Shown one piece after another: positions 12,016-40,370 of a DNA stretch of 64,000 bases (position 1 is the first letter of the stretch; each line of letters starts with the position of its first letter). A program made the translations under genes and the position numbers. The notes beneath the pieces are model-generated. The model did no database searches and was not told where the DNA came from. It saw nothing but the letters and a program-made list of their open reading frames with translations. The stretch comes from Apostichopus japonicus. Lineage: Eukaryota; Echinodermata; Holothuroidea; Aspidochirotida; Stichopodidae. The stretch is taken from NCBI RefSeq assembly GCF_037975245.1, contig NC_092563.1:12946001-13010000 (forward strand), in the 5' to 3' direction.

Positions 12016-12041
12016 CCAGGGAGTTCATAACAACTCCCTGG
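12016..12041. repeat. Hairpin, ccagggagtt arms
   Basis: A 10-bp perfect stem (ccagggagtt / aactccctgg) closes a cataac loop. Nearly the same hairpin, with the loop ccataac, recurs at 55766-55790, about 44 kb away. The two are therefore probably parts of one dispersed palindromic repeat. Confidence 0.6.
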
Positions 12042-16015: not shown

Positions 16016-17590
16016 TAATTTATGCTTGATTTGCTTCTGCACAAGTCCCTCCCGAATAAAATAGCAGAATTTGTTCTAGTTGATGTCAATGAGAGTTGTC
16101 TATTTACATCTACTTCTGAATGAACCGTAAGAAAAGTCCTCTACTACTGATGGAGCCAGTGACACTTATGAAGAAAAACTTTATAATTTATACTAAATTA
16201 ATTTTTCTTGAGTAGCTGAATTTGAATGATAGAGTCAATTGAACCACAGAATGATGACACATTCCTAACAATAAAACCCCTTAACTTTGCCATCATCAAC
16301 AGTCTAAACACATAAAGCAATAAAAACTATTATCCCAGATAAATGTGTCCACCATTGAGCAATTAAAAAAATATGTGCCTTATTCAGAGGCTAGGTACTT
16401 GGGAGTTGTCAGAGATGAGAAGAGATAAATAAAGAAACATGCAATTGAGTCAAGCATCTTCAAAGAATGCTAAAATTGTATTCATCTTCTGACTCTGTTT
16501 AATATATATGAATCTATTATATCTTAAACAATGTCTGAATATTGCATCCAACTCAAACACATATTCCACCCACAGTACTAGATTTGTGATATTAGTAAAC
16601 ACATTTAATGCATCTTTTTCTTCAACAATAGCACCCATTAACATCATTCCAACACATAGCTATCTCCAGTTTGCTATCATCAGACAATACACCTACACCA
16701 CCTGCTTCCCCACTACTTCACAAAGTAGAAAATGTGTTAAAATATAATTAATACTTGTCATGAACTAGACTTTCTTTAATGACCGACACTAGCAATGTAA
16801 AAGTAAACAGACCTTCACCTGGTAGTGTTTTCTGTAAACTTTTTTGAAATCATTTCAAAAAAATAAAAGTCTGTCTTGTAAGTAAGAGTAGCAAATAATA
16901 CAAACTTTGCCTGCTATATTTGATAGTAAACCATAACTGAAAATCTCTGTGGAGTCCTTTGATTCTCCACTTATACCTGTTTCAGTATCATTTGACAAAC
17001 TTTTTCAAACTTTAAATTGATTGATAAATGCAAACTTTGACACAAAATGTATATTGAACAATTTGCTTTAGCTTTTCATTCAAATAGTTATCACTTTTAT
17101 TCCACAACTTGAAAACTGTTGATAGGCAACTATCTTTATGTTTTATTTCCATATGTAATACTCATGTAAAACCAGTACAACATATATAGGTTGCTTCTTA
17201 ATTTGATATAGAATGCCACAGTGTAACTTTAGAAGTAACAATTTACTTAATAACAGTTATCTCTAATTATGTCATAAACGTCTCCTTTATTAAATACATT
17301 AATCATTTATCACTCTGCCGATCAGAAAACTTTCTAGAATATTGCTAAGAGATAGAAACTCCTTTTCTTATTCTTCCCACATATATAATCTCGAGTACAG
17401 CTGGCATAACTGTGTTGAGCACAGCTAACAATTACCCTACTGCATACGATTGAAATGTTCTAAGGCCGATCAATGTTCTAAAAATCTTCTTACATTCCCT
17501 TCAAAATTCCAAACTGATCTTCACTCAGTGGTGATACATGATGGAAACACTGAGGCATCACTACGCAGGACTGTCATAAATACCCCCTAT

Positions 17591-20500
17591 TCATCCCTCT
17601 CCAGACTGGTCCCGCTGCTCTTCAGGAGCGATGTAATCCTCTGTTCTGAAAATCTCTGGAGGGACGTACCTCCTGAGAGGCTTGTGTGCTGGATTCCTTG
17701 TTCTCTTCTAAAAAGAAAATATTAAATATTATATTAATATTTAAGTAAAAACTTTTCCAAACTGTTTAAGACATTGCAAATAATATTTCAACCTGTCATG
17801 TCAGTATGTTGGTTCTGTCTGCAATTTTACTGGTAACCTCTTTCGGATTCATCCCCGTTGGTATGTTTTATATCTCTTTTTTATTTTACCTTAAAGCCAG
17901 ATTTTGGAAGAGGCACAGTCATTTCCAGCCTGGCATTTGACTGATTGATGGCAGTTTTGGATAACTGTTAATGTTATAACATATTGGTCAACTACTCAAC
18001 TTTCTTTCATAAATAGACTGTACACAATGCTTTTTTCCTCATCATTGTTATAACAGTCTATTGTCTAGTTGTGATGGTCTCAGCAGCCAGGGTACACACA
18101 GGTGTGTATTACCAACTGTATGTTGACATGTGTATCACTGGAAACTGGGTTCATTGAACATGACCAATGTGAACTAACAAATAGCAACTTAGATAAATGT
18201 ACAACTGAATTGCACACCTGCCAACAAACCAGCAGAGAGTAAGAATGAGTAAAAACATGGACAGAAAAGTTCTGACTTTTGTTAAACACTTTTGTAGTTT
18301 AGGTTATTTTTTTTCTTTGCTGTACATGTGATTCATGTCTTAAAGGTTTTTGAAAATTATTTGCTTTCCAAATAATCCATGTGGATGACAAAATTAGCAA
18401 TTACTCTGTTTCCCTCCCTCTACCATCCCATTTTAAAAGTGAAATTATACAAACACAGCCATGTGCAACATATATGTTTATCATTAAACACTTATGCATG
18501 AGCACAACAACGGTTTCTTCTTGTTTCATCTCTACCATGTTTTCTTCAGCTGTGGTGTATTCCTGTTACATGACAATATTTTGTCTTACATCTTACCTGG
18601 CTAAAGAGAGGGAATGACATGATGAGATTCTTGACAGAGGTAAGGGTGCCCAAGTCTTTCTCTGCTGTGTTCACTTGTTCCTCTATGACCATCACATCCT
18701 TCTTAACCAGTGACACAAATTTCTGTTGATTTTGAAAGAAATAGGATGCCATATCATTCAATATTGGCAAGTATTTAAGTAGTTCACATGGTTGATAATG
18801 AATTTGTTTTATTCATGTAATCTAGTAAATAAATGCATTCTCCAATCTAACTTTTAAATGTAATCAAAGCTATCTGGGAGAACTGAACTAATTGCTTGCT
18901 CATTACACATCATTTGGTGCAAAAATATGTTACAAGGTGTCTTAGTTTTAATAATCAATTGACATTCTATTTTGAGTACTAGCTAACTTAGATAAAACCT
19001 GAAGTGTGCAATGCATAGCATAACTTTTTTTAAAGATCTGAGACTTTGGTTTTTTATATGAAACTGCCTAAAATGTACAATTTCCTACAACCCATTCACT
19101 GAATGTATACATGTCAATTGTTAATACAGGCAAAATTTGTAGAAAATATAATTAACACTCAATATTCAAGGATTTGTTGTCAATACATGACACTGTCATG
19201 AACTGGCTTTGTAACAGTGTCCCAATGGTTTAAATATCTCTGCAACATGGCTGAGACCGGTTTGATCTTGAAGATATTGTACAGTGGTACCGCATCTGAG
19301 ATGGGTACAGTGGTACCCATCTGAGTACAAATTAATGTTAATTAATTCTCGTTTAATTTAATAAATTTAATAAATGTTAATTTAATTTAATTCTCGATTT
19401 CTAAATGACAAAGCAGTGTTTTCTGTCATTGTTCCAAAAGATCTTATTTAACAAACAACATTGATGTTATTCGAATTAATAATAAAAAGAACAATAAATT
19501 ACATTTATAAAGCGCTTAATACAGAGTTTTAAAGCGCTTTACAAAACAGGAAAGAGACAAAGGAAACCAAGGAAATAAAGAAAATGTTTTAAGTTGTCTC
19601 TTGAAAATACAAAGGGAGGGAGAGTCGCGAGAGTGAAATGGGAGTTCGTTCCAAAGAGAAGGCTCAGCGACAGAAAGGCACGATCGCCATAACAAGTGTG
19701 GGTACGTGGACCAGGAGTTAATTGCAAATGCGCATGATAGGAAGAGCAAAGCGTAACTGTAGTTGACCGACACAAAGGAATAAGAAGGTCAGTGATATAT
19801 TGAGGGGCAAGTCTGTTGATCGCTTTGTAGGTGTGAAGTAGGATCTTAAACTGGATGCGCTGAGAGACGGGAAGCCAATGCAATGAACAGAGTACAGGGG
19901 TGATGTGATCAAACTTTTTAGTGATTTACTTCAAGAGATGCTTTGTGTAAGGAAACATTTGAGAAAGAAACACCAATTCCGGTGTTTTGGTGGTACTACC
20001 TATAAAATCTTTGTGTATGCTTCTTACTCTGGGTGACTTAACCCCCCTTCCCCCCCCCCCTCCCAGTCCTGACTTTGGTTATGCTAGGATTTCAATGTTC
20101 ACTTCATTGTGCTGTTTTGTTGGTGAAACTTATTTGAACACAGACATGTGTATGCATTTACATGTACAATGCTATTACACCCACTCAAACACGCATTTAT
20201 GTCATTCAATGTACAGTACTTCAAGAAATACTTTGAGTAAGATAAACACTCAAACATTCATGCATAGACTTTGACACATACCAACACATTTACTGTATGG
20301 TTAGTACTTAATAGCAAGGTTACAACAGAATTAGATGACCTGGTGGTATCTGTAGAGCTCACCTCTAAATCATCAACCTTTTGAAAGACAGACTCTAACT
20401 CTTTACTTTTGGCATGTACTTCTGGAAGACTTCTGTTGAGGGCAAGGGAAGAATCTGTTCTGATCTGAGAGGGGGGAAAAATTACAAATAACCATAACCA

Positions 20501-23500
20501 AAGTTGCAATAACAAAAATTTACAATTGATATAAATATTAAATCTATGTAAATAATGTCTTTCTGGATGTATCCTCTTAGTTTGAAATTATCTGTGGGTG
20601 CAAACATCTCACAGCAAACTTCTGTCTGTCAGTGGAAACCTTCTACCTTCTATGGATACAGTATGTTTTGATTCACCCAAAAGGTATCCAAAGAGTTTGA
20701 CTATCAGAAAACAGTATTTCTTCTGTAGTCAACAAGAAAATAAGCTAACTTTCAGTCTCCTTTAAATTTAGTATACACTTACGAGTACAAGTTATGTAGA
20801 ATGTCCTCTATGCATTACAGGTTACCAGTTTCTTTCTGTTGTTATAACATTGTTTCTGTTAAGACTATCCATTGTCTCATATAACATTCTATGCAGGTTG
20901 CCCCTGCTATACACCATTGCCCCCCACCCACCCTCCCCTCCCATGTCCCCAAGAAATTTTTCAAGGTAAGATTTTTCCTTGAAACATCTCAGTTTACATG
21001 ACAGAGTACTTACAATATCCACTACAGCACAAAATTCATCCAGTCTTGTGAGAAGTTCCTCTATTTTTTCATCCAGATGATTCCTCTGCAACATATTAAA
21101 GCAAAAATTGAAAAAATGAATACCTATAAACTTGAATGAAAGAGGTGCAAACTAATAGGTCAGTACAACACAAAACCTGATCAATAACATGCTTGGGTCA
21201 GGTTATTTTACGTACAAATACTACATAGCTTCATTTCCAGCTGGAATGTTAAAATGATAAAGTGAATACAAAGTTGTTGAGAACATCACTCACCACTGAC
21301 ATTGCTACTGCAGCAGATGATTAATAAATGGAGTAGCAGATTTAACCCAATGATAAGACATTAAGCAGTGCTTTTGTCTATCTCTCACAATACGTACAAT
21401 ACGACTAACAAGTTACTGTTTGCACTGAATCTCAGCTGGCCTAACCTTAAATAGGCCTGAAAGGTCATCAGCATTCCCCTAAAATATGCTGAAAAATTCC
21501 ACCCATGCTCACATTTCAACAAGCAGTGTACTCCCTCTCTCAAAGAAGTAAGGATATACAATAATTGCATGATGCTAAGAGCACAAACATTATTTTAAAG
21601 GCCAGCAGTGTGACAATTTCTCTGATCTTGAACAGTGGGTTAGTTATGTCCTTCAAATTTGTTATTTCAATGATGGCTTGATCAGATTTCTCGAAGACGC
21701 ATATATACATCTATGTATTTCCTCAACTACATGCATGCCTTGCAGTTTAAATGCCCATATACATCTATGTATTTCCTCAACTACATGCATGCGTTGCAGT
21801 TTACTGCATAACTGCAGTAAATGGGTGAAATGATTCATGAAAGTGCTTCAAAGTACAAATTGATATTTTCTTATTTCACTGTAGCAATTTAACAGATTTT
21901 GTGAAGACTTGCTAGGTTAAAATTGCTTTAAAAAAGTGGTGAACACTCTGACTGTCAAACAATACAACTATAGTGGCTATCAGTGCAGAAGCATAACACA
22001 GTATAGTCAAGGAACCTATTATAGGGCAAACTAAAACGAATGACAGCGAATGACAATTGACTTTGTACAGGGTTAATTATCATTCGCGAATGACAGCGAA
22101 TGACAACGAATGACAACAAAGGATGGTGGTGAGAAGAGATAGAATGATAAAGGAGTGGAGTGAATGCGGTTATTGGTTTTCTGCGCAAAAATGATTTGAG
22201 GAAAATCGCATGTTACGTGGTTGCATGGTTTTGGTGTAATTTACGGATAGAAACCCGTGGAAAGTTTTTGTGTGAGAATGCGCTTGAGTGCTGTGCTTTT
22301 GACATTTACCTCTGTAGATTTATATAGAAAGATAACTGAAGTAATTGTTAGGTGCTGGCTAATTGGTATGTTTGAAACTGATATATCCACGATTACTTTG
22401 GGTGGAAAATGATATCGTACTATTAAAGTATAAAAATTGTAGTAGCAACCACTGTTTTCTCGAAAATTTTCTAGGAACGTTTGGCTGCAGTTCGAAAAAT
22501 CCAATGAGATGAATCATCCGGCAACTCATATAGGCCCCTACTGTATATATACATTTTTCATGTAGGGAACTTAGGAATGTATACATGGCGTTCGAGCAGT
22601 GGCGTGCGCAAAGGGGGGGGGGGGGTGGGGACGGCCCCCACCTTCATGATCAGTCGGGGAAAAGAACCTCAGTCGGTGGAATGAGAGAATCGATAATTTA
22701 ATATACCCACAAAGTCTGAACTGTGATATCCGGTTGAAGCAAATGTCTGTGTTGTCATTCACTGTCATTCGTTTTAGTCAACGCAATTTTTTAGTGTGTA
22801 CAACATATTGTCATTCGTTATGTGTAACGCAATTGTCATTTGTTTTAGTAACACCCCCTATTATGACACATAATTGACACACAGTTTGAAATTTCATTAT
22901 ATTTACTATAGCAGGAGAAAGGAAGCTCGACTGCACTAGCAAGTCCCTCAATGTGTTTTGCACCAACCAAACAATGATGTAATGCTACAGTACGGCCAAA
23001 TCATAACAATCAAGTAACTTGTGTGTTACTGTTACTTAATAAAAGTTAAACGAGCTATACTGTTGTGTGTTTGTAATAAACAATCAAGAAATATTCCAAA
23101 CTTATTTTTTCCAGAATTTGGAGCCGTTGAATCGGACATGTATGGGACCTCCCCTCCCCTACCAAAAAAAAAAAAGATTTGGGCAACAAATTGTGCATTC
23201 AGAGGCATATAAAATTAGGTATGTTAGCCTAGCTCTAGATCATAGATGTTATAGCCTAGGTTGTGTTGACAAATACCTTGACTTTTTGTGTGGTTGTAAA
23301 AAGGAGGTGTACACCGGGAGCAGTGGTCTTCTTAGTGGTAATTCTTAATGTTAACCTAATCCTCCGGCATTTCCCGACTGTAGAAAACTAGGCTAACTTC
23401 GTGTAAGGCCTAGCCTAATGTTAATCTATATGTATACAACTTCATGTTTATTGTCCATAACGTTACATTACAGTACAGGTAACTTAGTAGTACTCTAGCC

Positions 23501-23638
23501 AAAATTCCTTGCCTCTTTTTCAGGATCTGTCACAACAAATGAGGCATAATCGGAGGCAGTGTCTTGTACAATTTGATCCAAACTGGTTTTGTTATTGGCA
23601 GCCGACTGTTCTTGTATATTGTCTTCGACAGAAGCCAT
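17591..23638 (-). CDS. BLOC1S4: BLOC-1 subunit 4 (cappuccino), five exons
   Basis: Minus-strand exons are 23638-23513, 21085-21014, 20464-20363, 18722-18597 and 17707-17591, all joined in phase 0, giving 180 residues. The product is a coiled-coil subunit of BLOC-1, the cytosolic complex that sorts cargo from endosomes to lysosome-related organelles. Matches to human BLOC1S4 run in order: LDEKIEELLTRLDEF (human LDASLEDLLTRVDEF), VHAKSKELESVFQKVDDLE, then EEQVNTAEKDLGT and the C-terminal FRTEDY. Acceptors are good (ttgcag, ctctcag, caacag, tttttag). Donors are GTAAGT, GTGAGC and GTAAGA, except the first, which is GC (GAG|GCAAGG). ATG 23638 begins the only open frame joined to exon 2. The human gene is intronless and its 217-residue protein has a longer N terminus. 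Intron 3 holds a LINE relic (19489-19915). The identity is strong, and the first-exon join is the least certain part. Confidence 0.9.
19489..19915 (-). mobile_element. Truncated LINE relic (reverse-transcriptase C-terminal end)
   Basis: The minus strand reads LHWLPVSQRIQFKILL-type sequence, then YKAINRLAPQYITDLL and DRAFLS, ending in an RDSPSL...FKRQLK block. This is the conserved C-terminal region downstream of the LINE reverse transcriptase in CR1/L2-like elements. At least two frame shifts break it. The 3' tail 'ttataaagcgctt' is at the low-coordinate end. It sits in intron 3 of BLOC1S4, in the same orientation as the gene. Confidence 0.8.
21703..21803. repeat. Tandem duplication, 54-bp period
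   Basis: The block 'atatacatctatgtatttcc' through 'ttgcagttta' occurs at 21703 and again at 21757 with a single substitution (gcct/gcgt) over about 47 bp. It lies in BLOC1S4 intron 1. Confidence 0.8.
22022..22860. mobile_element. PIF/Harbinger-like non-autonomous element (839 bp)
   Basis: The left end TAGGGCAAACTAAAACGAAT and the right end (inverted: TAGGGGGTGTTACTAAAACA) form imperfect terminal repeats. Repeated gaatgaca motifs lie just inside both ends. The flanks are TTA on both sides (22019-22021 and 22861-22863), the 3-bp duplication typical of PIF/Harbinger. No transposase is present. A G-run block starting 'agtggcgtgcgcaaag' near 22599 may be a nested hAT-like insertion. It lies in BLOC1S4 intron 1. 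Confidence 0.65.
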
Positions 23639-26440
23639 GACATCAATCGTTTTCAGAATGAAAATAGAAAACTAACGACGTCGGTAGCACTAAAAAAATA
23701 ACACACTGTGTAATTGTATGCTTTACTGTGTATATGAATTCCAGAGGAAGACGGTGTTATTATTGAGCTGGTTGAACCTTGCCTGCGTAGCGGGATTCTG
23801 TTCAACGTATGTTACATTCCTTCCTGAAATGTGAAAATAACATAAAGTGCACTACGCAGTGGATTAGAAGTCAACTTATTGGTCATATGCACAGTGGTCA
23901 TATGATGTAAACAGAAAAATTTTGAAGTTTGGCTATAGTGTATACATAAGTGTAAATCGGCTAACTTTTTCGACGAGTTTCGGAAACTCACCGTTCCAGT
24001 CATTGAGGAGAGGCGAGGTGGAGTGGGAATTGCAAATTTCTCCCTACCGATTTAGGTAGGAGGCTGACGTCTTATGGAAGGGCCAGAGGCGAAGAAAGGA
24101 TTTAACAAAAAGACGGGAATGACCTGGGTCACTGAAGCCGCCTCTTATATACCTGTAGGGAGTCCTTCCCGGAGGAAAAACTTAAGACGTCAAATGGTGC
24201 ATTCAAAGGCATAATTAGACTATAAAAGGGCTACTTGTACCTTCAAACGCAACCTTTTTTTCTGAAAATCCTAAACTCAAAATCCCCGACTGATTTAGAA
24301 AGTCATGAGTCCTGAACCATTTATTATGGGAGGTCTAGATGGGAATGGGTGCTGCCTGGGGTCATTGAAACCAACTCCCATGTTCGAAGGTATGGGGTTA
24401 CTCTCCCAGGGAAAAAAAAAACCTTGATGTCAAATGGTGCATTCTGAGGCATATACTTGAGGTCTATACATACATATATATAATTTTAAACTAAGGGTGT
24501 GATAAGAAATTAAAGTAAATTACCCCCACCCCATCACCCCTGGCAGACTGATTTAGGTATAAGTCTGCAGCTTTATAGGAGTACCAGAGGCGAGTTAATA
24601 CTTTGTGTGGGGTTGAAAAAGGAGGGATTATAGTAGTGGTCCTAATCTCCCCTGGCTGAATGCAAAGAAATCCCCGGATTGAACCATTTTCCCACGATTG
24701 ACTTCGCGCATAAAACTAGCGTAGAGCAGGCTATACAACTATATAACAATCAGTAATACACATTTTCCAAAAGGTTTAACATTAATTCGGGAATTTGCTT
24801 TACAAGAATTTTACTGAGAGTGAGTTGACCTATGATTTTTGCACATTGTCATCGATTTTATTGTTGGAAAGTAAAGAAATTAAAACTTAAATACAGATGA
24901 CGCCAACTTCAGAAGCATTCAAGATGCATCATGATGTATCAGTATATCTTGTAAATCCGCTGCTGAAAGTGCAACATTGGTGATAACATTTGTTATGTTC
25001 GGAATTTAATGTATCATTTCTACTTTCCGCTCTCCTATGCTCTGATGGCTTTGAAAAGTGGCAAAGCAAGTGTGTAAGACACACGCGTAGCCAAGCCGGG
25101 GCACAGGGTTACCCCCCATAGAGACTACTGCCCCCCCCCCCCCCCAATCTGAGTCGATCATCATTGTGTGTTCAAGAACTAAAAAATGAATGCAAGTTCG
25201 GACAAGAGTTTAAAACCCATCCTCAAATTGTTGATGCAGCTTATTTAATCTCTGGTGCCCCTCCATTTCGGAAATCTTGGCTTCCTGTCTGGTGTAAGAC
25301 AATAAAGCAATTAACATCGATGTACGTAATCTGTTCGAGGCTACCGTAGTAATCCCGTCCAAATAATCTGCTTGTTGTACATGGAATGGTCATACCATAT
25401 TGATGAATAGCGCCACGAAATTCATCACATATTTTTACGTCCAATTTGCCTGGACATCTGATCGTTGCAGAAAAGAACTCGTGCCAGAAATAATTAAACT
25501 AACGACATTTTAAGGCACATTTTAGGGAAAGTGTAAAGTTTTAGAACAAATCATATACGGTTTTATTTTCTCCCTATAGTTGTTATGGTTGAGATCACAA
25601 GATCTATAAAGGTGCCTTGATTTCTTTGTGTCCTCACAGTTTGTTTAGCTAGACTATAGTGACAGCTGAGGTTCGCAAATGTTCGCCAAATCTGCAAGTT
25701 TATGAATACATTCTCATGATTGGCCTCTTTCCAAAGCGGTTCTTTGTTCATTCTAATTTGCACGGGTCCTTTCTCTGTTTTCAATATGAAAACTTTCTAG
25801 CCAGTGGCATACTAAGAAAATAAACCATATTATTTACAACAGATCTAAAACTAGTGCCTTCTTTCCAGAGGAAACTATTGTCCTGAACTTTGACCCTTGG
25901 TGGTAGTTCTTCACCTCACCCCCCCCCCCCGCCTCTCCCATACTTCCCTGATGATTACACGTGGAGACATGCCAAAGTAATCGCTTCGTCATCACCAAAG
26001 GTTAGCACCTGTAATGTGTCTTTAAAGGAGGGTGCCAATCTGAGGGTCTTTCCATGTATTACTGGTTTTATGTTTCAAGCTGTGTCAAATGCCCACGGTT
26101 GGGAATACCTCATTCACGAGAACATCCGATTCACTAAGTATCATACAATAATATCGTATCATAATAATATTAACTATATAATATGAAACATCCACGATAA
26201 TATTATTGCATGTATTACTACATGATAAAATGATATATGATAATAAAGCATGTGTTAGCTGTCCAGAAACAAATATTTTGGTAAAAAAAAAATCACTGCT
26301 AAATGGTAGTTAAGGAAACTGGACGTCTTGTTATTCTTCACTTTAATAGTGCACCATATTTTCTATGTGAATTACCGACTGTGAAATTATTCAGTGGTCT
26401 GGGTTGCCATGAATGAACCTTGCTTTTCTATAGTGGTAAG

Positions 26441-26577
26441 CATAGGCGTAGGAGGCGGGGAGCTGGGGTCTGCAGCCCCCCCCCCCAACCAAATATTTTT
26501 GTGAAACTTCGGGTAATATGCTGAGATTTTTTTTACAGCCCCCCCCCCCCAAATCAAATTGGGCTCCTACCCCTATG
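26441..26577. mobile_element. Short hAT-like inverted-terminal element (137 bp)
   Basis: The left end CATAGGCGTAGGAG and the right end ctcctacccctatg are inverted copies with one mismatch. Two poly-C runs lie inside. The flanking 8 bp (gtggtaag / gtagtagc) agree at only 5 of 8 positions, so the boundaries are approximate. Confidence 0.5.
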
Positions 26578-26840
26578 GTAGTAGCAATCACAGCTTAGGT
26601 TTAAAAGTTCCCGTGACGGTATATAAATCAGGCCGCGGAACATATTTAATCGGGGACGAGACATCAAATCTGGGGACTCCCAGTTGCCATTGAAAATGGG
26701 GGAAATTTTGTTCAAAGGATTTATCCCATTACTTAGGACAGTAGGATGGCAATCTGCACTTTGTAAATTGATCTGTAAACAGTTAAAGTATTATATTTGA
26801 ATAATTTATCCACAGAGGAAAATAATGAGATGGGGTTTTC

Positions 26841-27350
26841 TACGGAAGACTATTGCGGCCATGGCAAAAAAAAAACACGGATATATATACAAGACAAAAT
26901 TTTTACTACGAAAAACAAAATTTTTACTACGAAAAACAAAATTTTTACTACGAAAAACAAAAATTTTTACTACGAAAAACAAAAATTTTACTACGAAAAA
27001 CAAAAATTTTACTACGAAAAACAAAATTTTTACTACGAAAAACAAAAAATTTTACTACGAAAACAAAATTTTTACTACGAAAACAAAAATTTTATGTAGT
27101 CACACATTCACAAACATTGACTGTGCAGGTGCAAGCAGACTTTCGATGTGCGTTTTGAATGTCTCGAAATGGATCGAGATCGCCTTATTCGGCAATATTT
27201 CAGCATGGGGTTACCCTATGCTAAAATTTGTTTTTCGTAGTAAAAATTTTGTTTTTCGTATTAAAAATTTTTTTTCGTAGTAAAAATTTCGTCTTGTATA
27301 TATATCCGTGTTTTTTTTTTTTTTTTTTTTTGCCGCATTAGTCTTCCGTA
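26841..27350. mobile_element. Foldback element with tandem-repeat arms (510 bp)
   Basis: The termini are inverted 19-mers differing at one base (TACGGAAGACTATTGCGGC left; TACGGAAGACTAATGCGGC right, inverted). An A-run/T-run and 'cacggatatatatacaagac' follow in both arms. The left arm then has nine copies of a roughly 20-bp unit, AAAATTTTTACTACGAAAAA, and the right arm has about three in inverse orientation. The flanks share gttttc (26835-26840 and 27351-27356), a probable 6-bp target-site duplication. Overlapping lysine-rich open frames here come from the tandem unit and are not genes. Confidence 0.8.
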
Positions 27351-27829
27351 GTTTTCAGATAACAATGTGGAAAATACTTATATCGTCTACGTCTGGAATA
27401 TCCATGTAAGAGTCAATGCGAGATATATTAAAAAATCTAGCAAGTTTGCACTACGTATTTGGTCAGGTGTTAATAGAGTAACATACTGTAATGTCGCAAT
27501 TAAGGGTCAGAACGGATAAAATCACACCAATATAGGCAGAAATTTACTGTTGGCAGATGTTGTCGGTCAGTCTTGCAAAAGAAAAGCTGACACACGAAAT
27601 AGGCATTAATTGAGGTAAGTTTTCAAGATAGTGAAAACACAATTACCCCAGGTACGCTTACTTGTATGCAACTTAAAAGTGGGTCTAGTTCCACGAAACT
27701 CCACACACCCCCGCTGCAATCTACCCCAAATCAATCACAACGTTAGGCTTGCGTTATAACATTATAACAATGTAGAAACACAATAATTTTTATGAGTGCA
27801 CATTTATTGCAGTACGTTTGACATTAAGG

Positions 27830-28203
27830 GAGACAGTAGGCCTAAATAATCTTGAAACAGCTAAAAAATTCAGTTTGAAACATACCAATTAGCCAGCACC
27901 TAACAATTACTTCAGTTATCTTTCCATATAAATCTACAGAGGTAAATGTCAAAAGCACAGCACTCAAGCGTATTCTCACACAAAAACTTTCCCTGTGGTT
28001 TCTATCCGTAAATTACACCAAAACCCTGCAACTACGTAACATGTTTTTCCTCAAATCATTTTTGCGCAGAAAACCAATTACCGCATTCACTCCACTCCGT
28101 TAATCATTCTATCTCTTCTCACCACCGTCCTTCATTGTCATTCGCGAAAGATAATTAACCCTGTACAAAGTCAATTGTCATTCATTTTAGTTTGTCCCTA
28201 AAG
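27830..28203. mobile_element. Second, inverted copy of the Harbinger-like arm
   Basis: The minus strand of this segment matches 22022-22380 closely. In order they share 'actaaaatgaatgacaattg', 'tgtacagggttaatta', 'ggtggtgagaagagatag', 'ttggttttctgcgcaaaa' and 'ttaggtgctggctaattgg'. It lacks two of the gaatgaca repeats and the far part of the 839-bp element. The outer ends resemble 'agggagacagta' and 'agggacaaacta', so it may be a short independently mobilised derivative. The boundaries are approximate. Confidence 0.7.
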
Positions 28204-28703
28204 TTCTATTAATGTGATGGAATTGATGTGTTGCACTTCAAATTACAATGATGAAGTCACGTACCTCCCTCTCCTTAAAAAGGGGGGGGGGGTATAGAAC
28301 ATGAAGCAGTAAAATAATGTTATTGCTGGAAGAATTAGGTGTCTTTATGGACACTTGTTATGAAGCATTATAGATGCCAGAAGTGTGTGATTTGTTAATC
28401 CATTTTTTGTTTTCTCTAGTTTTTAGAATTCATACATGTAAACTTCAAAGATATTTCAGTCATTTCTATAGACAAACAAAGTCAATATGGGATATCATGT
28501 CTAACGATGGTAAACTGATGATACACTGGTTAACCATAATTATGAGTGCATCATAATTATGAGTGCAGTCATTTAGAAACAGTAATTGAGGGTCCGAATA
28601 CTCAGGAAAGATGTAATATTTTTTGTCTCTTTTATGTAACACCAAACATGCTAATTTCATAAATTATACTTTAATAATTGAAATATTTCCCTTTCACCTA
28701 CAG

Positions 28704-31700
28704 CTCAATGTTACAAGTCACTGGGCAAGATGTTTGAACAATTTAAGGAGAAGTTCCAAGCTGTTCAGCAGGATTTGAGTGATGGGTACTCAGTTTTTTC
28801 CTTCTTCTTCTTCTTTTCAAGTTTTAGTTTCTTTATTAAGCAACTGAACGCCTTTTATACTTTTCATGCCTTTATTCATCAAACAATGTACAATGCAAAC
28901 TGCAGTTGAGTCCGGGATAATCCATCCAGTATCACATACAAAAATTTGTGTGAAATAGTCAATTTGCTGTATATTACAAGTCCAAAGATACAGTTCAGCA
29001 GGATTTTCTGGTACATAGAAACCATAGTATTTGATAAGAGACAAAATTCAGGGTCTTCAAAACTTCTACACATAAGTTAAAAAGTAAATTATTTACTTAC
29101 ATTACCTACAAAATTTCTTAGTCAAATATTTTGGTTGTATCAACATTCCTGTTGCAGTAATCAACAATGTTGTCACTACCTTCATCACTGTAAATGATCA
29201 ACCGAGGAACACTTTTAGCTTTTCTTATGCCCAAAAACACAATATAATCAGCTCCTTCAAGTGTATATGACAGTACTTCCCACTTACTGTAGTACAAGTA
29301 AGACTGGACCTGTACCACAGTATTTCATGAACAAAAGGACACTAGATGCTTCATTTTGTTAAAAATATATTGGTGTCCACCAAACTTACAGTATAGGCAT
29401 CAAAATACAAATTTGAAAATAAATGGTGACCTCAATGTAACAAATCCTGTAAAATGTAGGATCTGGCTTATTAGATATATGAAAGGTGGAACCCCTACTT
29501 TTATGTCAAGATATGAGGATTTTTTAACATTTATTTGTAGTAATTTAATGAGCCTTCAATGCAGGATACAATGTATAGGTTTGACTTTCATATATTTTTT
29601 TTGTAGTAGCTATCTCTCACTTCCAATAGTGCAAATATCTGAAGTATAGCTGAGAAATTTCATCCAAGTTTTCTTGCCTTTTGACAACATGTACTGATAC
29701 CATAAGGTTGTGGAATGTTTTTTCAGTGATTCGTGGATTTGAGGTTTCCAGATGTCCTACAGTTATAGTTCAACTTGGAAACACATCTCTTTCTCATTTG
29801 AAGAAAATGGGATTTATATCAGCAGTTAAAGCAGTTATATCTTAAATAACCCACAGCTGTTCTTTTCAAACATGAATTCCTGCTTGTTTTTTTTAGGATC
29901 AAAAGCCTTAGTGTGAAGGCACAGAAGGCTAGCAAGACAAATAGGTAAGTGGTGCGTGTGGTGTTATATTTGCTTTGTTCTCAACTTAAAACAGAAAAGG
30001 CGAGTACTTCAAGACGTTAAAAAATGATGAGAATTTGAGGAATTTTATCCAGTGTATAACATTTCATCTGTGTCATCTTTAGAACTAAGAATTTGGAGCT
30101 TCTTTTTTCTTTATACCACCAATGATCTGGAAACCGATCATGGATGCTCATGGTATAGACCAGTGGTTCTCAGGGTACACGGGAGTAGGGGGGCGTTGGC
30201 ACTGATTTGGGGTTCCCTGGCGATAACGAAACATAACTGCATTTAGGGCACAATAAGGCATCCAGGGGATCTGGAAACAAAAAAATAAATTTTGTGACCC
30301 AAAATAATCCAAAAATGGTATTAGAAATTCAATAACTCCACCCCTAGGTCCAGTTTCTTTTGCGTTTGGATTATTTTGTGTGTAAAAGTAAGTTGGCCTG
30401 ACGTTTTGATCCTAGCAGGATCTTCTTCAGAGGCTAAATGACAAGTACAGTAACAGAAGAATTGATGTGATTGATGAAGGTGAGCAGGCTATCCTCATCA
30501 CTGGTCCAAACGAAGATGTCATCAGTGTAGCGCCACCAAATGAGGGGATGGCAGGGAGCTGTACTGAGCATGCGTTCTTCAAGGCTAGACATAAACAGGC
30601 ATGCAAAGGAAGGAGCCATCCTGGTTCCCATGGCAGTCCCGTGTCTTTGAAGGTAATGCTTGTCCATGAACGTGAAGTTGTTTTTGGTGAGAACCTGTTG
30701 AATGAGAACTTTGATGTCAGAGATTGGTGGACAAGGGTGGACCTTCTTAGCCTGCTCACCTTCATCAATCACATCAATTCTTTCCACAGCACCATCAAAT
30801 TCACCTCTGATTACTCTCACCAACAGGTTAACTTTCTCGATGTGACTGTTCGCAAGGAACATGCTTCTCTCTCTACAGACTTATACACCAAGCCCACAGA
30901 CACACCAGTATCTCCATTCTTCAAGCTGCCTACAGTCAAGCACTTCGTCTTCATCGCATTTGCTCTAACAACTCCTCTTTCATTCGCCATACAGATGCTT
31001 TGGAAAAACACCTTACTGCCAGGGGCCATAGTGCCAGAAGGGTGCGTGAAGCCATTCAGGGAATCCACTCCCAGTCCAGATCATCTACTTTGGCAGTGAA
31101 AGACAAAAAGGGACGAGATTGCGACAACAAGCTGCCCCTGGTTGTTACTTTCCACCCAAATCTTCCTCCTCTTCAGAAAATCACCTCTAACAACCACAAC
31201 ATTCTCCTCACTTCAGATAGACTCCAACGAGCCGTCCCTGAAAAACCCATCATCGCCTACAGACGATCAAGCAACCTACGAGACCTTCTTGTGCGTGCTG
31301 CTGTTCCACCTCTAACTTCCAACCCTTCACCCATTCAGCATGGTACTTTCAAATGTGATCGTCTGCAGCCACCACATTGTTGAATCCAATTCCATCACCA
31401 GCCACAGCATGCAACTCACACACAAGACTAAGGGTCACATCACTTGCACTTCCACCAATGTCATCTATCTGATATCTTGTAGAGTTTGCGGCATCCAGTA
31501 TGTTGGCGAAACCAAAACCACTCTCAAGAAGCGATTCTATGGTCACAGATCCACAGTCAACACCATGAAGACTGAGACCCCAGTTGGAGAACATTTTAAC
31601 CTTCCCAACCATACCATTAACGACATGTCCTTACAGGGGATTGAATCCTTAGGTAGCCGCCCTGACCTAGTACGAATCAGCAGAGAGAGTCTCTGGATGC

Positions 31701-34700
31701 AACGCCTTTGCACCATTCAACCTCATGCGCTGAACATTCAGGAAGGACATGACTAACTTTTCTTCTGTCCCCCACTCCTTCTCCCCTTGTTCCCTCCCCC
31801 CCCCCCTTTCATTCATCCTCCCACAGCTCTCTTCCCCTCCTTTTTTCTCCACACCTTTCTCTCTTTGTCCCTCTCCAGTTTATTCCCTACCTCTCCTCTT
31901 TCCCTGTTGCTTTCTTCTCACCATCCATTTTCTACTTATAATCCCCTTTCATCTTTCTCATTGTGTTCACCGTGCTCATTAACCTGTCTGTTTTCTGTGC
32001 GTGTTTTTGTCCCTTCTGTTACTGTCATTAAGCCTCTGAAGAAGATCCTGCTAGGATCGAAACGTCAGGCCAACTTACTTTTACACATTCTATTACACAG
32101 GCCCTCTAGTGGATAAGCAGTTTGCTAACAGTTTTATTTTATTTGGATTATATTGTAGCAGAGATATCTCTTGTAACTTATAAGTGCATAGCGCCACCAT
32201 TTTAGCCTGTCATTTGGGGTATTTCCTGAGCTGGTCATTGATTGCGAAGTCAACGCAGCTTGCCTTCTGCAGGTTTTTGTTGTTCTTGCAAACAGAAAAA
32301 GAAAAAGTATTGTTGAGAGAAAATTCATCATCTTGTAGGGAATGTACAGTAGGCTATTTTTTAATTCCTATATGCATATCTTCGGACAATCTGATTGCTC
32401 GGTTGAGCGGCCCACTATGATTGGTGGTTTATTGGGAGTGTGAGTGGTGGGGCCAGTACACATGAGTGTAACCAATATTGTCATGTGTTTGTTCTGTAAA
32501 TAGGAACCAAAGCCATTAGAGAAGATAGTTTAGTCTCATATATGGCATCCATTCATTATCGGTAATGAATGAATAGTGGATCGCAATTAAGTATGTTTGC
32601 TTTTTGCAGCTTTCAAATCATAATCTATGATCACATTAACAAAAAGAGTTTGGTCTAACAACACTGTTAGTCATCATCTAAGACAACTGGAAAACTCTTA
32701 AAAAAATAAAAGAGGCTGCAACTTATCAATTAGCACCTCATTCAGACTTATTCTGTGTCAAATAAAACAAATATGTTTTAGTCCAAGTCCTGATACACAT
32801 GAACAGGACTTCACTACTTCCATCTCAATTGTATGGAATACCAGTTAAAAATACATTATTCACCATTTCTATTTTTTTTTCTATAGGAATTCAGAGAATT
32901 TATCTTCAAAACACGACAAGTAAGTTTTATCTTTTTGTTATATTTTTGTAATCAGTTTAAAATATATATTTGAAATTTGGAGAGGCTCTCCAGGGACAGA
33001 TTGGAATAAAAACTTTGAGTAGCAATAGGTTATTACTGTACATTAAATTCATGTGTTTATTGCATGTATCAACATGAAGATCCCATAATAGAAGTTACTT
33101 TAATAAGTTACATAATAAAGGGAGTACGTATTAAACACCATAGCACTGTTCTTGATATCTATGTACAGCTAATCTCTGTGTTCATGACTTTTGTTTTAAA
33201 CTCACATTGATATTTCATTACAGTTTACCGAATCTGAGGGAAGGTTTACACATATCCGCTGGTGCTGACCTGCTAGATCAGTAAGTTAATAATAACTGCA
33301 CAGGCAGTTCTATACATGTATGTCTATTTTATCTTTGTTTTAAGTGTGATTTCTGGATGAATTAAGGTATAATAAATCTGTGTGACTTCTGGATGTATTT
33401 AGGTGTGATTAAGGTATGATAAATCTCAGTGATTTCTGGATATATTAAGGTATGATAAATCTCCTGATACATAAAGAGATATCAAGTTGGCTTAGAATGC
33501 AGATTATTTGGTGCAATTCCAGCTTCAGAGATCACTCTATAAAGAAGCATACACTATCATGACAGTGTTAAAGGGCTGCAGATTTTCAATGTATCTGTAA
33601 TGTATAGGCTTGGTAACTTAAATCACTAATCAACCACCAGGGCAAGATCCACTAACCTTACCCTCTACCTGAAGCTACTGTGATTGCAATCCCATAATAT
33701 CACATTAGTGGCATAACTAAACTAAAGCCGATTTCTAAGTTTACTGTTTGCAAGAGTAATGTGTAAACTGGATGTAAAAGATTCCTGTAATATTTTTTAA
33801 TATTTTTCTTCTTTACATAGTTTCCAAGGAACCTGGACAAACATTCATGAGGCCATAGAAGACTGCGCCAACAGAGCAACAGTAATTATTATTCATTCTT
33901 AGATGTATCAAAGTTATAAAATTAATTATTATTCATTCCTTGATGTATCAAAGTTATAAAATTTTACTCCTTACCTGACAAGGACCAATCTGACATGTGT
34001 CTTCATTTAAAGGTGACGTCATCATCAGTTATCCTTGACTTGAGTCTTGTCATTAACTATACTCAAGTCAAGAAAACACTTAAGTCACTGTACCATCTCT
34101 GTGGGGAGAAACAGCATAGATCTGTTTGACTCTGTTCATCCTGAATTGGTGACTCGAGTCTTGGCTTATTATAAACACTGCATGTATGTTTATATATTTG
34201 CATGTAACTATTAAAACTTTTTAAGATTTAAGGACTGGGAAAGTAATAATTTGTACAGGAAGATGTCACGTTAAAGTTGCAGTGGGTTGTGAATTTGTGA
34301 CACTCAGACAAAGCCATGTAATATTCCCGCATACTGTTAAAGTTGCAGTGGGTTGTGAATTTGTGACACTCAGACAAAGCCATGTAATATTCCCGCATAC
34401 TGTAATGGGTGATCCAAAAAGTTTAACTAAGAGATCTACGAATTTTGAGTTCCTCAAGTTTGATGTACTGTGTGCTTCACTTGCAACTCTTATGTTTAAT
34501 TTCATCATTCCTGGTGCAAGTTTTGAGTAATAAAGCAGACTGGTGATATTTTGTGAATGCATCTGGCAACAGAGTGATTGACATAATCATTGCAATTGAG
34601 TGGAAAAGGTTTTTGTTTTTCTTCACAATATTTCAATCATTGTGCGAAGAAAAAGTAGTATTTCTAACAATAGATTGCATTTTGATAAAATAATAGATAC

Positions 34701-37700
34701 TAACAACATTGAAAGACAAAGGAAACGTCCAAGTATATCACATTTTCAAGGATAAATCAACAAGATGATTATAGAAGGAAAGTAAAAGTTGCTACCATGA
34801 TGTCATCACATACTACCCAATGTGATCCACCATCTGAAGTAAGAGCAGTTTTAGCCAGTCTAAATAGTTTCCATTCATTGAACCATACTTTGAGCTAGGG
34901 ATAAGATATTTTGATGGGCTTTGAACTAACAGTGTAGAATAGTTTTCTCTTTCAGATAAGTTTCACATTGTCTGCCACAAAATTTGACTTTACAAAGACG
35001 TAAATATGCCTTTGATAATATTAAACTTGGTTCAAGGAAAACTGATCTCTTTGTAGGATGCAGATGCTCTCATACAGCAAATAGCCTTCAACCAAGAAAA
35101 GAAGTTTGCAGAATGGAGAGATATTAAAAAACATCTGCAGGAAATCCCAAATCTCCTGGAAGATATACAGAGTATTACAGCAAAGATAGGTGAGATTATC
35201 TCCATGAAGTTAAAAGGAAAAAATTGAAATGATCACCTCTCATAGCTAAATAGTGATGAGAAAAGTTCTAGTTGAAGAAAATAAAGTTGTTTAGGATGCA
35301 CAGGAGAGCTAAGGTTATTTTTGTTATCAGTTATTGTAGTACTTTGGTCAGCATCATGATTCAGTAAAGCTGTATCAAAGAGGTTTAGCGTCCCAAAGTA
35401 TTGATAGTTATTCAATAATTTGTACAAAAGGTAGAGATTTGCCGTTGAATAAGGTCCTGCTAGATCAAGATGTGAGGCCCTTCTGTGTTTATGTATTTTA
35501 CATACACAGGTTCTTTACAATAGATAAACACCTTGTTAACAGTTCTTTCTCCCCCACAAATAATATGATCAGTGCTTTGGTGTAAAAGAAAGTTATAGTA
35601 AAATTTGCAGTTTCCAGACCTGTTTTATCTGGATCTGATATCCAACGACCAATACTGCAGATTTATCATTACTAAAGTGCCTCAAATCTCAAGAACAAAT
35701 ACGACAAGTTTTGTCAGTTAGGGTATAGTTTCAGTTTTAACTATCTCAGTTTTATAAACATTTTGAAAATTTAGTTTTCTACCTGTCAATGACATTTCAG
35801 TAATGTTGTACTTAACCCAAATTGTTATTCATCCTTAGTAGTTGTTTATTCCTTTTATTTTCTTTATTATCATGCTTTTCAATTTATCCAGCAAAAAATG
35901 AATAACCATTAACTGAGTATTTGAACCTGGGACTTATTGATGAGGACTTTATAGTAATATCTCCTACTATTTCATGGCAGTAACATATGTACCATGCATG
36001 TTCGTATCAATATTGCCATTGGATATCAGCAATGACTTTGATGTAATTTCTTAATAGGAAAACTGACGGCAGACTTTGAAGAGGTGGAGGCATCTCTCGT
36101 AGAGTTGGAGGATGTGATTGATGAAGAAGAATACCGACAAAATGAAGAAATTCAGAGAAAAGAGTTGGAAAATTACCAAAAACAGAAGCTGTAAGTAATA
36201 ATCTGTCCTGGTGCTACCTGATTGTACCGATTGAATAGCCCAAAAGATTTGTTAAGAAAAGGAAGGAAGTGAGGATATACATAGATGTTGATATCATTTT
36301 TCAGGAAAGATAAAATGTTCAGTCGGTTTTCATCCTTGCCCTCCTCTGGAATTTCAAAGCAGATTCTTTTACTGTTTGATAACAAAAACTAAAGACTTAC
36401 ATATTAAATAACTCTGTCACAAATTTAAATAGACGGTAAGGGGAAATGCAAATCCAATCAGTGTATAAGCAGGAAAGGAAAGATTTACTCTGTCATCCCA
36501 CAATGTACAAAATGTCAGTACCCTGACAAGACATTGAATCTTTGTAGATGTGTTGTAAATGTAAACCATTCATTACAAACATCTCTATCAGATAAAAGGT
36601 TAAGAGGTTAAGATGATCGTGTTTGCATCTTCTTGCTAAGACAGATCCTGTTGCTTTCTTGTTATTTAAAAACATGTCATTTCATGGCTGTGAGTTTAAT
36701 GATGTAATAGTTTACTTTGGGCCTTCGAACTGTATCAGTTTTGTCAATGTAAGACCATAACTTGTGATTTCTTTACAAATTTATCATCACTTACAGAAAT
36801 TATGAATTTTTATTATTTGTATTTTGTTTCGTCAGCCATGAAGAAGGATTACTGAGAGGTAAGTATGCCATGTAACAAATTAAGAAATAGTGGGGGATAT
36901 GTGAATGTTCACTCCTAATTCCATCATACTGGTAGGGGATATGTGAATGTTCAGTCCTAATTCCACCATACTGCTAGGGGATATGTGCATGTTCACTCCT
37001 AATTCCACCATACTGGTAGGGGACATGTGAATGTTCACTCCTAATTCCACCATACTGGTAGGGGACATGTGAATGTTCACTCCTAATTCCACCATATTGG
37101 TAGGGGACATGTGAATGTTCACTCCTAATTCCACCATACTGATAGGGGATATGTGAATGTTCACTACTTATTCTGTCGTACAAAGTGGGATATATAAAAG
37201 AATGTTTACTCCTATTATTATCATACTAGTGAGAGATATCAGAATGTTTACTCCTATTCCTATCATACTAGTCAGGCATATGTGAACTTTTTTTTGTACT
37301 TCCATCATACTAGTGAGGTATCTGTGAATGTATACTCCTTATTCCAGCATAATGGTGGGGGATATGATGATATTTACTTCTTCCCCCATCATACCAGTGG
37401 GTGGGGGGGGGGGTTGTTTCCTAATTCCTATATAACATTTGGGCTCAAGTTGTTGGACATGATGGTGTGTCTCTATTACAGTGGTTCTATAAGAAAGTCT
37501 AGAACATTCCTGTTGTCCATGCACAATTACTACGGTCAAGAGTGAGCCGCTTTGTGACTTCCTAACCATATTGTAACTTACATGTTTAACGTAAACTGTG
37601 TAACAAAGATAACCACAGATCTTAAAAAACATTTTTTTGTTTGTTTGTTCATATTTCATCAATTGCAATTATATTACAATAAAAGCCATTTCACCAAGCT

Positions 37701-40370
37701 ACAATAAAATGTACTATAAGAAACAGTTGTTAACGTTTCAAAATGCCTGTGATTTATTGGATTGAATGGATTTCAAGCATACATGCTCTGTTCATTCATA
37801 TAGTTTTCTCTTTCTACTTTCTCCCTTCAGCTCGTTTGCAAGATGAATTTGATGAGAAACTGAACAAGAAACAAAAAGAGGAGGACGCTAAAAAGAGGGA
37901 AAGGCAGCAAGCATTCCAAGATTTCTTTGCCGACGATCTTAAACACTACAAGGAATTTGGCCAAATGCAACGTAAGTGATTCACATCCATGTTATTAAAT
38001 TTGATTAAAATACTACAAAGGCTTTACCCTCGATGCATATATCATTCTAGTCTCTACAATGGTAAAGTAATTTGGTGTGACCAGGAGTATTGGGAAGGAG
38101 AAGGGATATCTTCTATTTCTATCCTCTTCTGAGTTTATAGACAGCTATACATCTTTACTGGTTAGTGTCCTGTACACAATCTGCAGCAATAATTGGTAAC
38201 ACAAAAATTACTTGCCCCTTCTCCGTTCAAAATTATTCCTGGTTCCAGTACATATCTACATGATGTAATAAATGTAAGTGTCATTGTTCCAAATTAAGGG
38301 AACAGAAGTAACGGACAAGTGATTGGAAGAATAATGATATCATTATTTAATACACAAGATACACTTTAAAGGTAAAACATTAGGGCCTGTTTTACTCTGC
38401 TTCAGATATCTGAGTCTAAAAAGCCTTCCCTTGAAGGGATTTTGTGTATCAAACTTTGGGTGAAAGAATCCATAGGTCTGTCTGTGCCTCGGATGTGAAC
38501 ACAGATGTTTGGTTAAATGCTTTGAACACTAGAGAAATAGTACTCAAAGTTGATGAAAGAAGTGCTAAAGGAATTGACCATATACAGAAGACATTCTTGG
38601 AATGGTAGTATTTGGCACCAAACAAGACTCTCAAAATTGTCCATCACAGTTCTGTTGTTGCTATTTTTTTCCTTTTCACTATGTGAGCAATCAAATCAAT
38701 CAATTATAGCAATCAATCAATATGTGAGCAATCAAAGAGAAAGATGCACCAAGTAAAACATTGAACTCTCTCATGAAAACTCAAACATAATAACATTTAG
38801 ATTAGAGATTGTCTCTACACAGGAGGAGTGGGAGTTGTTGACCACCGATACAGCCCTTCCCCCACCCCCCTTCCCCCGCTTTTTTTTTTGTCTTTGTGAA
38901 CACTTGAGAAGAGAAAGGAACATCAAGTAAATCTGCCTTCTGTCACGAAGACTCCAATACATGATAACATTGAGATAACACGTTGTCTTGTCTCCACACA
39001 GGTCCGATGGAGGTCGCTGCTCCAGAGACACATCTTGAAGATTTTGAATTAGAATGGGATGAGCATGATCAGCAAGCTCTCAATGACTTTCTGGGACCAC
39101 CAGAGGACCAAAGGTCATCTGAGGTCAATTTAGGATCATCGTTAGGCAATAAAGAATCTTCTGAAAAAAATGAATTTGTCGAAAGGAATGATGATGAAGA
39201 AGGAGAGAAGGCAGATGTTGTAGCCAATAAAAAAGATGAAGAGTTATTATTGAGAGAGGATGCCCCAAGCAATAATATGGAGCAACAAAGAGACAATGCT
39301 CAAGGCGATAGGAAAGATGAACCAATTGAGGATGCTCCAATCAGTAAGATGGAGGAAGAGGTACATGATGCAGAACTAAGTCAAGAGGGAACCAAATCTA
39401 GACTAATAGATCATAGAGAGAACATGTCTTCAGAGGTGTGTATATCTCTAACCACTAATCTTGTTATTTAACATCTGTAGATTAATCTCTGTTATTTATC
39501 ATTTAGAGAACAGTATAAACAGAGAGGGTTTGTGTTCTGAGAGGAGAGCCTTTCAGTGCCAAATTTAATAATAATAAAAATCACTTGCACCATTTGGGGA
39601 AGTTGAATTATGCTGAAGGACCCTAAAGTATTCACAATGTAAACTTTGCAGAGTATGTTCTAAATTTCCATTTTAAAAATTAACACATTTGTGGCATTTG
39701 TAAAAGCTTTCTTGATATTAGTGATATTAAAGTTAACATCATAATTGGACCGTTTTTTGCTGCAGCTTCTGTTCTTTGGGGTTTTCTTCGTACACCAGAA
39801 ATGCAATGTCAAAAAGTGTTTATTTGAAATAGAAGGGTCCATCCCATTATAAATGTGGTCTTGGTGCAAACAGTTTGCAGGAATTTCTCCAAACAGAGAG
39901 GTTGTCTGTACTAGTCAGTAGTCAAAAATTTTCAAAACTGCTTTGTGTATAATTTTCATGAATGTTTGACATGAACTGCACAACATCAGATCAAAGAAAC
40001 AGAACATTGTAAATCCTTGATGATGTTAAACTCTGCTTTAAGGAATTGTCTGGTGGAAGATTTGGATACATTTTCCTCATAGTTCTTATGTTTCTCTTTC
40101 TAACCATGTGAAAATTGTCCCCATTCACCATTTTCTTCTTGTAGAAATCTGGTTTCCAAATTCACCAGTTTCTCACCAAAAAGCACCATTTGTTCAAACG
40201 CATCAATTTACACTTGTGGACATTTTATAATCTGGCTAGGTATAACATTCCTTCACATTGGCCAGATACAATGTTTCTGAATGTTATGGAATCAGTTTTT
40301 GTTTCTCATTTAGGAAAAGAATGACGGTGATGCAGATTCTGATGAATTTGAAGATGCTGTTGAAGAATAA
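28704..40370 (+). CDS. DTNBP1: Dysbindin, eleven exons
   Basis: Exons are 28704-28785 (start ATG 28730), 29897-29944, 32887-32919, 33224-33280, 33821-33881, 35057-35189, 36058-36190, 36836-36858, 37831-37971, 39002-39435 and 40314-40370, giving 391 residues against 351 in human. All introns are GT-AG, and every join keeps frame. Dysbindin is a coiled-coil BLOC-1 subunit for endosomal sorting to lysosome-related organelles and synaptic vesicles. Human matches: KFQAVQQDLSDG (LLSVQQDFTSG), AGADLL..FQGTWTNIHEA (AGLELLSRYEDTWAALHRR), RKELENYQKQK, RQQAFQDFFADDLKHY and DQQALNDFLG. The coiled coil covers residues about 86-225. Exon 10 is long, acidic and glutamate-rich, and the tail ends in a DSDEFEDAVEE acidic patch. 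The start matches the human MLETLRERLL start. Exon 1 opens at an acceptor (cctacag), so an upstream non-coding exon is expected. Intron 2 holds a Penelope-like element. Confidence 0.93.
30381..32085 (+). mobile_element. Rearranged, decayed Penelope-like retroelement
   Basis: The minus strand of about 30450-30744 encodes Penelope-type reverse-transcriptase motifs (GTAMGTRMAPSFACLF and WWRYTDDIF). The plus strand from about 30745 resumes at LLTFINHINS, a segment also present at the end of the inverted piece. It continues through IAYRRSSNLRDLLVRA to a GIY-YIG endonuclease motif (CGIQYVGETKTTLKKRFYGH, about 31487-31546). Frame shifts break the plus-strand part. The two ends carry the same roughly 80-bp terminal sequence in inverted orientation. 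The 3' part is pyrimidine-rich. It sits in dysbindin intron 2 and is not expected to be mobile. Confidence 0.85.
32032..32070 (+). other. Hammerhead-ribozyme-like motif in the Penelope terminus
   Basis: In order there are stem I GCCT (32032-32035), core CTGAAGA, a 5-bp stem II GATCC/GGATC with a TGCTA loop, GAAA (32059-32062), then CGTC and the stem I partner AGGC (32067-32070). This fits the CUGANGA...GAAA...UH hammerhead layout. One extra A lies before stem II, and stem III has no loop, so only a dimeric form looks feasible. Penelope-like elements are known to carry minimal hammerheads. The inverted copy at 30396-30434 has GAAA changed to AAAA. Confidence 0.5.
33310..33470. repeat. Degenerate short tandem repeats in DTNBP1 intron 4
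   Basis: The blocks 'gatttctggat', 'attaaggtat' and 'gataaatct' recur three times with a spacing of about 45-50 bp. They are non-coding. Confidence 0.6.
33885..33965. repeat. Tandem duplication at a DTNBP1 exon-intron border
   Basis: The block 'attattattcatt' through 'atgtatcaaagttataaaat' occurs twice with a period of about 41 bp, just after the splice donor of exon 5 (33881). Confidence 0.7.
34271..34402. repeat. Perfect 66-bp tandem duplication
   Basis: Two identical 66-bp copies starting 'ttaaagttgcagtgggttgt' stand at 34271 and 34337. Perfect identity suggests a recent duplication (or an assembly artefact). It lies in DTNBP1 intron 5. Open frames through it are incidental. Confidence 0.9.
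36893..37400. repeat. 42-bp minisatellite, about 12 copies
   Basis: The unit runs 'ggggatatgtgaatgttcac' then 'tcctaattccaccatactg', with copies at 36893, 36935 and 36977 and onward every 42 bp. It becomes degenerate after about 37180. As 42 is a multiple of three, it produces repetitive open frames on the minus strand that are not genes. It lies in DTNBP1 intron 8, starting about 35 bp after exon 8. Confidence 0.9.

Follow-up and report, generated by a model that had tools for sequence, protein, structure and literature searches.

Head-to-head adjacency of BLOC1S4 and dysbindin in a sea cucumber genome, probably a chance neighbourhood

The genes of two BLOC-1 subunits, BLOC1S4 and dysbindin (DTNBP1), adjoined each other in a window of 64,000 nucleotides, the whole stretch of DNA analysed here (contig C3, 12946001–13010000), with BLOC1S4 on the minus strand and dysbindin on the plus strand, head to head. 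This divergent neighbourship in an echinoderm genome is real, and the best reading of the arrangement is a chance, probably lineage-specific, neighbourhood. A preliminary description of the window had left the choice between a lineage-specific accident and shared regulation of the two subunits; we favour the accident as the more probable, whereas shared regulation found no support: the gap contains repeats, the two proteins belong to different half-complexes in mammals, the candidates for the other six subunits are scattered over six other contigs, and the 5.1 kb between the start codons exceeds the span of about 1 kb described for bidirectional promoters. The Apostichopus japonicus assembly comprises 23 chromosomes and 19,828 genes, according to the available part of its report (PMC10344927). 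Our literature search found no published account of BLOC1S4-DTNBP1 synteny and nothing on sea cucumber dysbindin or A. japonicus BLOC1S4; among the papers listed for BLOC-1, dysbindin and cappuccino, none took up gene order.

Results

Gene models of BLOC1S4 and dysbindin

The predicted BLOC1S4 model consisted of five coding exons (23638–17591, minus strand; 543 nt including the stop codon, 180 amino acids), and the predicted dysbindin model of ten (28730–40370, plus strand; 1128 nt including the stop codon, 375 amino acids); both gave a complete open spliced frame (Table 1). When the models were rebuilt, the two start codons, 23638 and 28730, and the two stop ends, 17591 and 40370, were exactly those of the preliminary description, and its spacing of about 5.1 kb agreed with the 5,091 bases counted between the start codons. 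All four introns of BLOC1S4 were in phase 0, three being GT-AG and intron 1 GC-AG, with the donor gcaagg (GC, not GT) at 23507–23512 of the minus strand. The dysbindin introns were GT-AG in nine of nine cases. Dysbindin exons 2, 3, 4 and 7 were reasoned choices, picked by homology together with splice signals and phase, and since homology entered into their selection, a good fit of these exons does not count as separate proof of identity. A sequence resembling a splice acceptor, with its end at 28703, suggested that the dysbindin 5' UTR may be spliced.

Table 1. Predicted coding exons of the two genes and the interval between their start codons (positions in the window)
Feature	Position	Strand	Remark
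BLOC1S4 coding exon 1	23513–23638	-	126 nt, start codon 23638; followed by the GC-AG intron
BLOC1S4 coding exon 2	21014–21085	-	gene model
BLOC1S4 coding exon 3	20363–20464	-	gene model
BLOC1S4 coding exon 4	18597–18722	-	gene model
BLOC1S4 coding exon 5 and stop	17591–17707	-	FRTEDY aligns with FRTEDY of the provisional human BLOC1S4 sequence
Interval between start codons	23639–28729	.	5,091 bp
Dysbindin coding exon 1	28730–28785	+	start codon 28730
Dysbindin coding exon 2	32887–32919	+	33 nt; by eye from phase and homology
Dysbindin coding exon 3	33224–33280	+	by eye from phase and homology
Dysbindin coding exon 4	33821–33881	+	homology
Dysbindin coding exon 5	35057–35189	+	human alignment, gene model
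Dysbindin coding exon 6	36058–36190	+	human alignment, gene model
Dysbindin coding exon 7	36836–36858	+	23-nt microexon, preserves frame; ranked second among candidates
Dysbindin coding exon 8	37831–37971	+	human alignment, gene model
Dysbindin coding exon 9	39002–39435	+	human alignment, gene model
Dysbindin coding exon 10 and stop	40314–40370	+	gene model

Identity of the two proteins

Human BLOC-1 subunits in provisional sequences, five of them in the alignments with shuffled controls, served as comparison proteins; BLASTP E values assume a database of nominally 10 million letters, and Smith-Waterman Z scores refer to 300 shuffles. In BLASTP, an earlier BLOC1S4 model with four extra residues was identical to provisional human BLOC1S4 at 63 of 184 positions (E 6e-28), and a partial dysbindin model lacking exons 2, 3, 4, 7 and 10 was identical to provisional human dysbindin at 64 of 213 positions (E 8e-17); no cross-match was listed for these earlier models. 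With the full models, BLOC1S4 gave Z 47.6 with its human counterpart and at most 2.9 with the four other subunits, in a comparison that left out BLOC1S1, BLOC1S2 and BLOC1S3, and dysbindin gave Z 33.8 with its counterpart and at most 3.0 with the four others. The eight wrong pairs among the five human subunits ranged from −0.1 to 3.0. Both identities proposed in the preliminary description were thereby upheld, the provisional human counterparts matching far above shuffled controls and the other tested subunits not. As in animal BLOC1S4 (cappuccino), the segment LDEKIEELLTRLDEF, VHAK and the C-terminal FRTEDY aligned with the provisional human protein. The dysbindin alignment with the provisional human protein began at the first residue, reached the acidic C-terminus and included FEEVEASLVELED and ERQQAFQDFF, a likeness to the DTNBP1 genes of animals. 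The alternative that the minus-strand gene is BLOC1S5 (muted), which in human lies on the same chromosome arm as DTNBP1, was rejected; its Z with muted was 1.2, and the muted candidate of this genome sits on contig C17.

A Pfam scan of both full models found no family above its cut-off. The Dysbindin family, PF04440, was unmatched by the full dysbindin model at E values up to 1, as it was by earlier pieces of the model, and a PF04440 search of the genome gave no match, nor did the control genomes. Provisional human dysbindin scored 240 bits with PF04440, which supports this comparison sequence. Unlike DTNBP1 as modelled by Pfam, the sea cucumber protein has diverged beyond the model in the region that PF04440 covers. 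Since PF04440 is a database model and not a defining trait of the gene, the identity of dysbindin rests on the alignment. A phmmer search of the PDB with the earlier models of both proteins gave weak matches only (E 4.1 and 0.46).

The genome searched comprised 671,581,487 bases in 35 contigs. All five listed matches of BLOC1S4 were its own exons in the window and covered five of five exons, and all five listed matches of dysbindin were likewise its own exons there, covering five of ten; no second copy of either gene was found in these searches at E 0.001. No relative of BLOC1S4 was confirmed in viral contigs, a possible accidental source of other animal DNA. The window sequence contained no N.

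The interval between the start codons

Among 27 open frames of at least 55 amino acids in the interval, 24 were scanned and none had a Pfam domain at E 0.001. With the flanks included, the scan covered 84 frames, to which the interval contributed these 24, the region at 40.4–54 kb 32 (of 40) and the region below 17.6 kb 28 (of 47); none pointed to a further gene at this threshold, in a scan that domainless exons would escape. Two mutually inverted tandem arrays occupied 26894–27094 and 27222–27299, and a dispersed repeat at 27870–28183 had an inverted counterpart of 89% identity in BLOC1S4 intron 1 (22048–22381); these two inverted copies flank BLOC1S4 exon 1 together with the interval. A genome search with the whole interval, in which 40 of 2,548 candidates were scored, listed 51 matches; of these, 42 belonged to the repeat at about 27870–28183 and eight to the tandem arrays, and one was the interval itself.

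CpG depletion in invertebrates usually marks methylated gene bodies. The CpG observed/expected ratio was 0.61 in the interval after removal of local repeats, 0.50 in BLOC1S4 intron 1 and 0.26 in the rest of BLOC1S4, with the 19–20 kb bin inside this gene as an exception (0.68); it was 0.25 in dysbindin (32100–40370) and already 0.21 at 28184–28729. Thus a CpG-normal gap at about 22–28.2 kb separated the CpG-poor dysbindin body from the BLOC1S4 body, most of which was also CpG-poor. This pattern suggested that the dysbindin transcription unit starts upstream of its start codon, at about 28.2 kb or before, and that the 5' ends of both genes are in or beside the gap. The pattern fits two separate promoters, and one common promoter would also be compatible with it. 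Outside the pair, CpG depletion extended about 7.6 kb past each stop codon (10000–17590 and 40371–48000), which may reflect long 3' UTRs or the transcription of other genes.

No exact consensus of an NRF1 core, ETS, YY1, SP1 or CRE site was found in 23500–28760. The interval contained a single palindromic NRF1 half-site, which fell within the repeat, and one CACGTG E-box, as well as six CCAAT boxes on the plus and five on the minus strand and five TATA-like sites per strand, these being raw counts without a chance control.

Dysbindin intron 1 contained, at 30379–32087, a GIY-YIG match above its cut-off (E 4.8e-5) and a reverse transcriptase match of 28.4 bits against a cut-off of 29.6 bits, with inverted flanking pieces; the two domains also occur together in Penelope-like elements.

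Other BLOC-1 subunits in the genome

Candidates for the remaining six subunits were located on six other contigs. BLOC1S2 (C6), BLOC1S1 (C18) and BLOC1S3 (C21) exceeded their family cut-offs, and provisional human proteins as queries gave candidates for pallidin on C4 (E 1.8e-4), for muted on C17 as a single 28-residue match (E 3.7e-4) and, with weak similarity, for snapin on C22 (E 0.07); a search of the genome with the Snapin_Pallidin family found no match. Altogether seven of the eight subunits were matched at E 4e-4 or better, and snapin at E 0.07. As none of the six candidates was on C3, no BLOC-1 cluster was seen, and BLOC1S4 and dysbindin would be the sole linked pair among the eight, as far as the candidates hold.

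In the accessible text of PMC3419718, the fly RefSeq numbers of BLOS4 (NP_648414) and BLOS2 (NP_648427) are near each other, dysbindin being NP_649064. Should accession numbers of this kind reflect the order of genes along a chromosome, the fly may have a BLOC-1 pair of its own in close proximity.

Other features of the window and genome

At 7741–8226 (plus strand), an open frame matched the Pfam family GSK-3_bind (FRAT/GBP family) above its cut-off, with E 7.6e-10. FRAT/GBP is best known from vertebrates, and an echinoderm member may merit attention. At 54180–55601 (plus strand), an unbroken frame of 474 amino acids carried the catalytic domain of glutamine synthetase (E 5.3e-70); it was apparently without introns, stood in a CpG-normal stretch and resembled a lengsin-type class I enzyme. 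An open frame of 1,123 amino acids at 57322–60693 (minus strand) had the endonuclease and reverse transcriptase domains of a LINE-type retrotransposon.

The mitochondrial contig C35 (16,099 bases) contained, with frames assigned by eye, COX1, ND4L, COX2, ATP6, COX3, ND3, ND4 and ND5, followed by ND6 (reverse), CYTB, tRNA-Phe, a frame-poor stretch, a tRNA-rich stretch, ND1 and ND2. Sea urchins and sea cucumbers have this as their ground order; sea stars do not. Besides this full contig, broken pieces of COX1 with an in-frame TGA were present on contig C29 (14745–31219), which represent either mitochondrial DNA inserted into the nuclear genome or the misassembly of a mitochondrial contig.

Discussion

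We consider it likely that two intact, ordinary BLOC-1 subunit genes came to stand head to head through genome rearrangement and share no promoter. Rearrangement would have put BLOC1S4 and dysbindin side by side, and each gene would have a transcription start of its own, within or next to the CpG-normal stretch at about 22–28.2 kb, presumably from separate promoters and without co-regulation; the proteins would join separate half-complexes and meet only in the assembled BLOC-1, which would then sort cargo to lysosome-related organelles. For 20,000 randomly ordered genes, the probability of any adjacency among eight named genes is 0.0028, a value for one complex only, which the requirement of a head-to-head orientation cuts about fourfold by arithmetic. 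Because BLOC-1 was named after the pair had been seen, and the genome encodes many complexes, some such pair would be expected somewhere. Against chance count the smallness of about 0.003 for one named complex, an orientation that favours co-regulation, a CpG-normal gap compatible with both genes starting there, and the CCAAT, TATA-like and E-box sites in the interval, which were counted without a chance control. That one identification or one assembly join is wrong, making the pair an artefact, is scarcely credible: neither full model exceeded a Pfam cut-off, PF04440 included, the human comparison sequences were provisional and the gene models were predictions from genomic sequence, but the right pairs stood at Z 33.8 and 47.6 against at most 3.0 for eight wrong pairs, both models were complete with GT-AG or GC-AG introns, the window was free of N, and all listed genome matches of both proteins (five of five each) lay within it.

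Co-expression of both subunits through one bidirectional promoter, or through a 5' regulatory region common to the two genes, at 23.6–28.7 kb appeared very unlikely to us. According to the available text of PMC2568002, bidirectional promoters have their starts within 1 kb, and HADHA/HADHB is a divergent subunit pair with a common promoter; BLOC1S4 and dysbindin resemble this precedent in being divergent and in that both products belong to one complex, but differ from it in the 5.1 kb between start codons, the repeats between them and the lack of any sign of a common promoter. The head-to-head orientation would suit a shared promoter, as would the CpG-normal interval with a CpG-poor gene body on either side and the 5' UTR exons that dysbindin probably has upstream of 28.7 kb, which could bring its transcription start closer to BLOC1S4. 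On the dysbindin side, however, CpG depletion has set in by 28184, which suggests a start close to that gene, and the exact NRF1 core, ETS, YY1, SP1 and CRE sites are missing. In mammals, moreover, BLOC1S4 (cappuccino) and dysbindin belong to different stable half-complexes, cappuccino with pallidin and BLOS1 and dysbindin with snapin and BLOS2, as the available parts of PMC8533863 and PMC3419718 describe them. Because the two are thus in different half-complexes and not partners in one stable trimer, the argument from stoichiometry is weakened. Highly improbable, in our judgement, is an ancient ambulacrarian divergent unit, lost in vertebrates, whose common region would set one limiting subunit per half-complex and so balance assembly. 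An old echinoderm or ambulacrarian neighbourhood held by selection, for example because one gene or its surroundings harbour a regulatory element of the other, is unlikely, though deserving of consideration. The human genes are on different chromosomes (4p16 and 6p22), and the mammalian (human) BLOC1S4 gene probably has a single coding exon, unlike the sea cucumber gene with its five; our literature search found no published account of an intronless or single-exon BLOC1S4. If the mammalian gene does have a single coding exon, retroposition may have carried it to its place in human, and that place would be a poor guide to the ancestral gene order. Apart from this separation in human, the C. elegans homologues, T24H7.4 and Y106G6A.5, are on different clones in the accessible text of PMC3419718, which argues against an old neighbourhood, as do the repeat insertions in the interval. 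For it speak the intact pair with its two complete models and the many short gene-order blocks that animal genomes retain, as stated in the available part of PMC8851819. Like the conserved microsyntenic pairs of animals, the present genes are adjacent and non-paralogous; unlike them, they are known as a pair from one genome and are separate in the two species just named.

The preferred reading remains that of chance neighbours, and the present yield is two checked gene models, probably from a sea cucumber. The adjacency of two members of a complex, spotted post hoc, is weak evidence for co-regulation, and this case may serve as a caution in that respect. If the BLOC1S4-dysbindin pair were conserved, it would provide a rare example, outside vertebrates, of a trafficking complex with linked genes.
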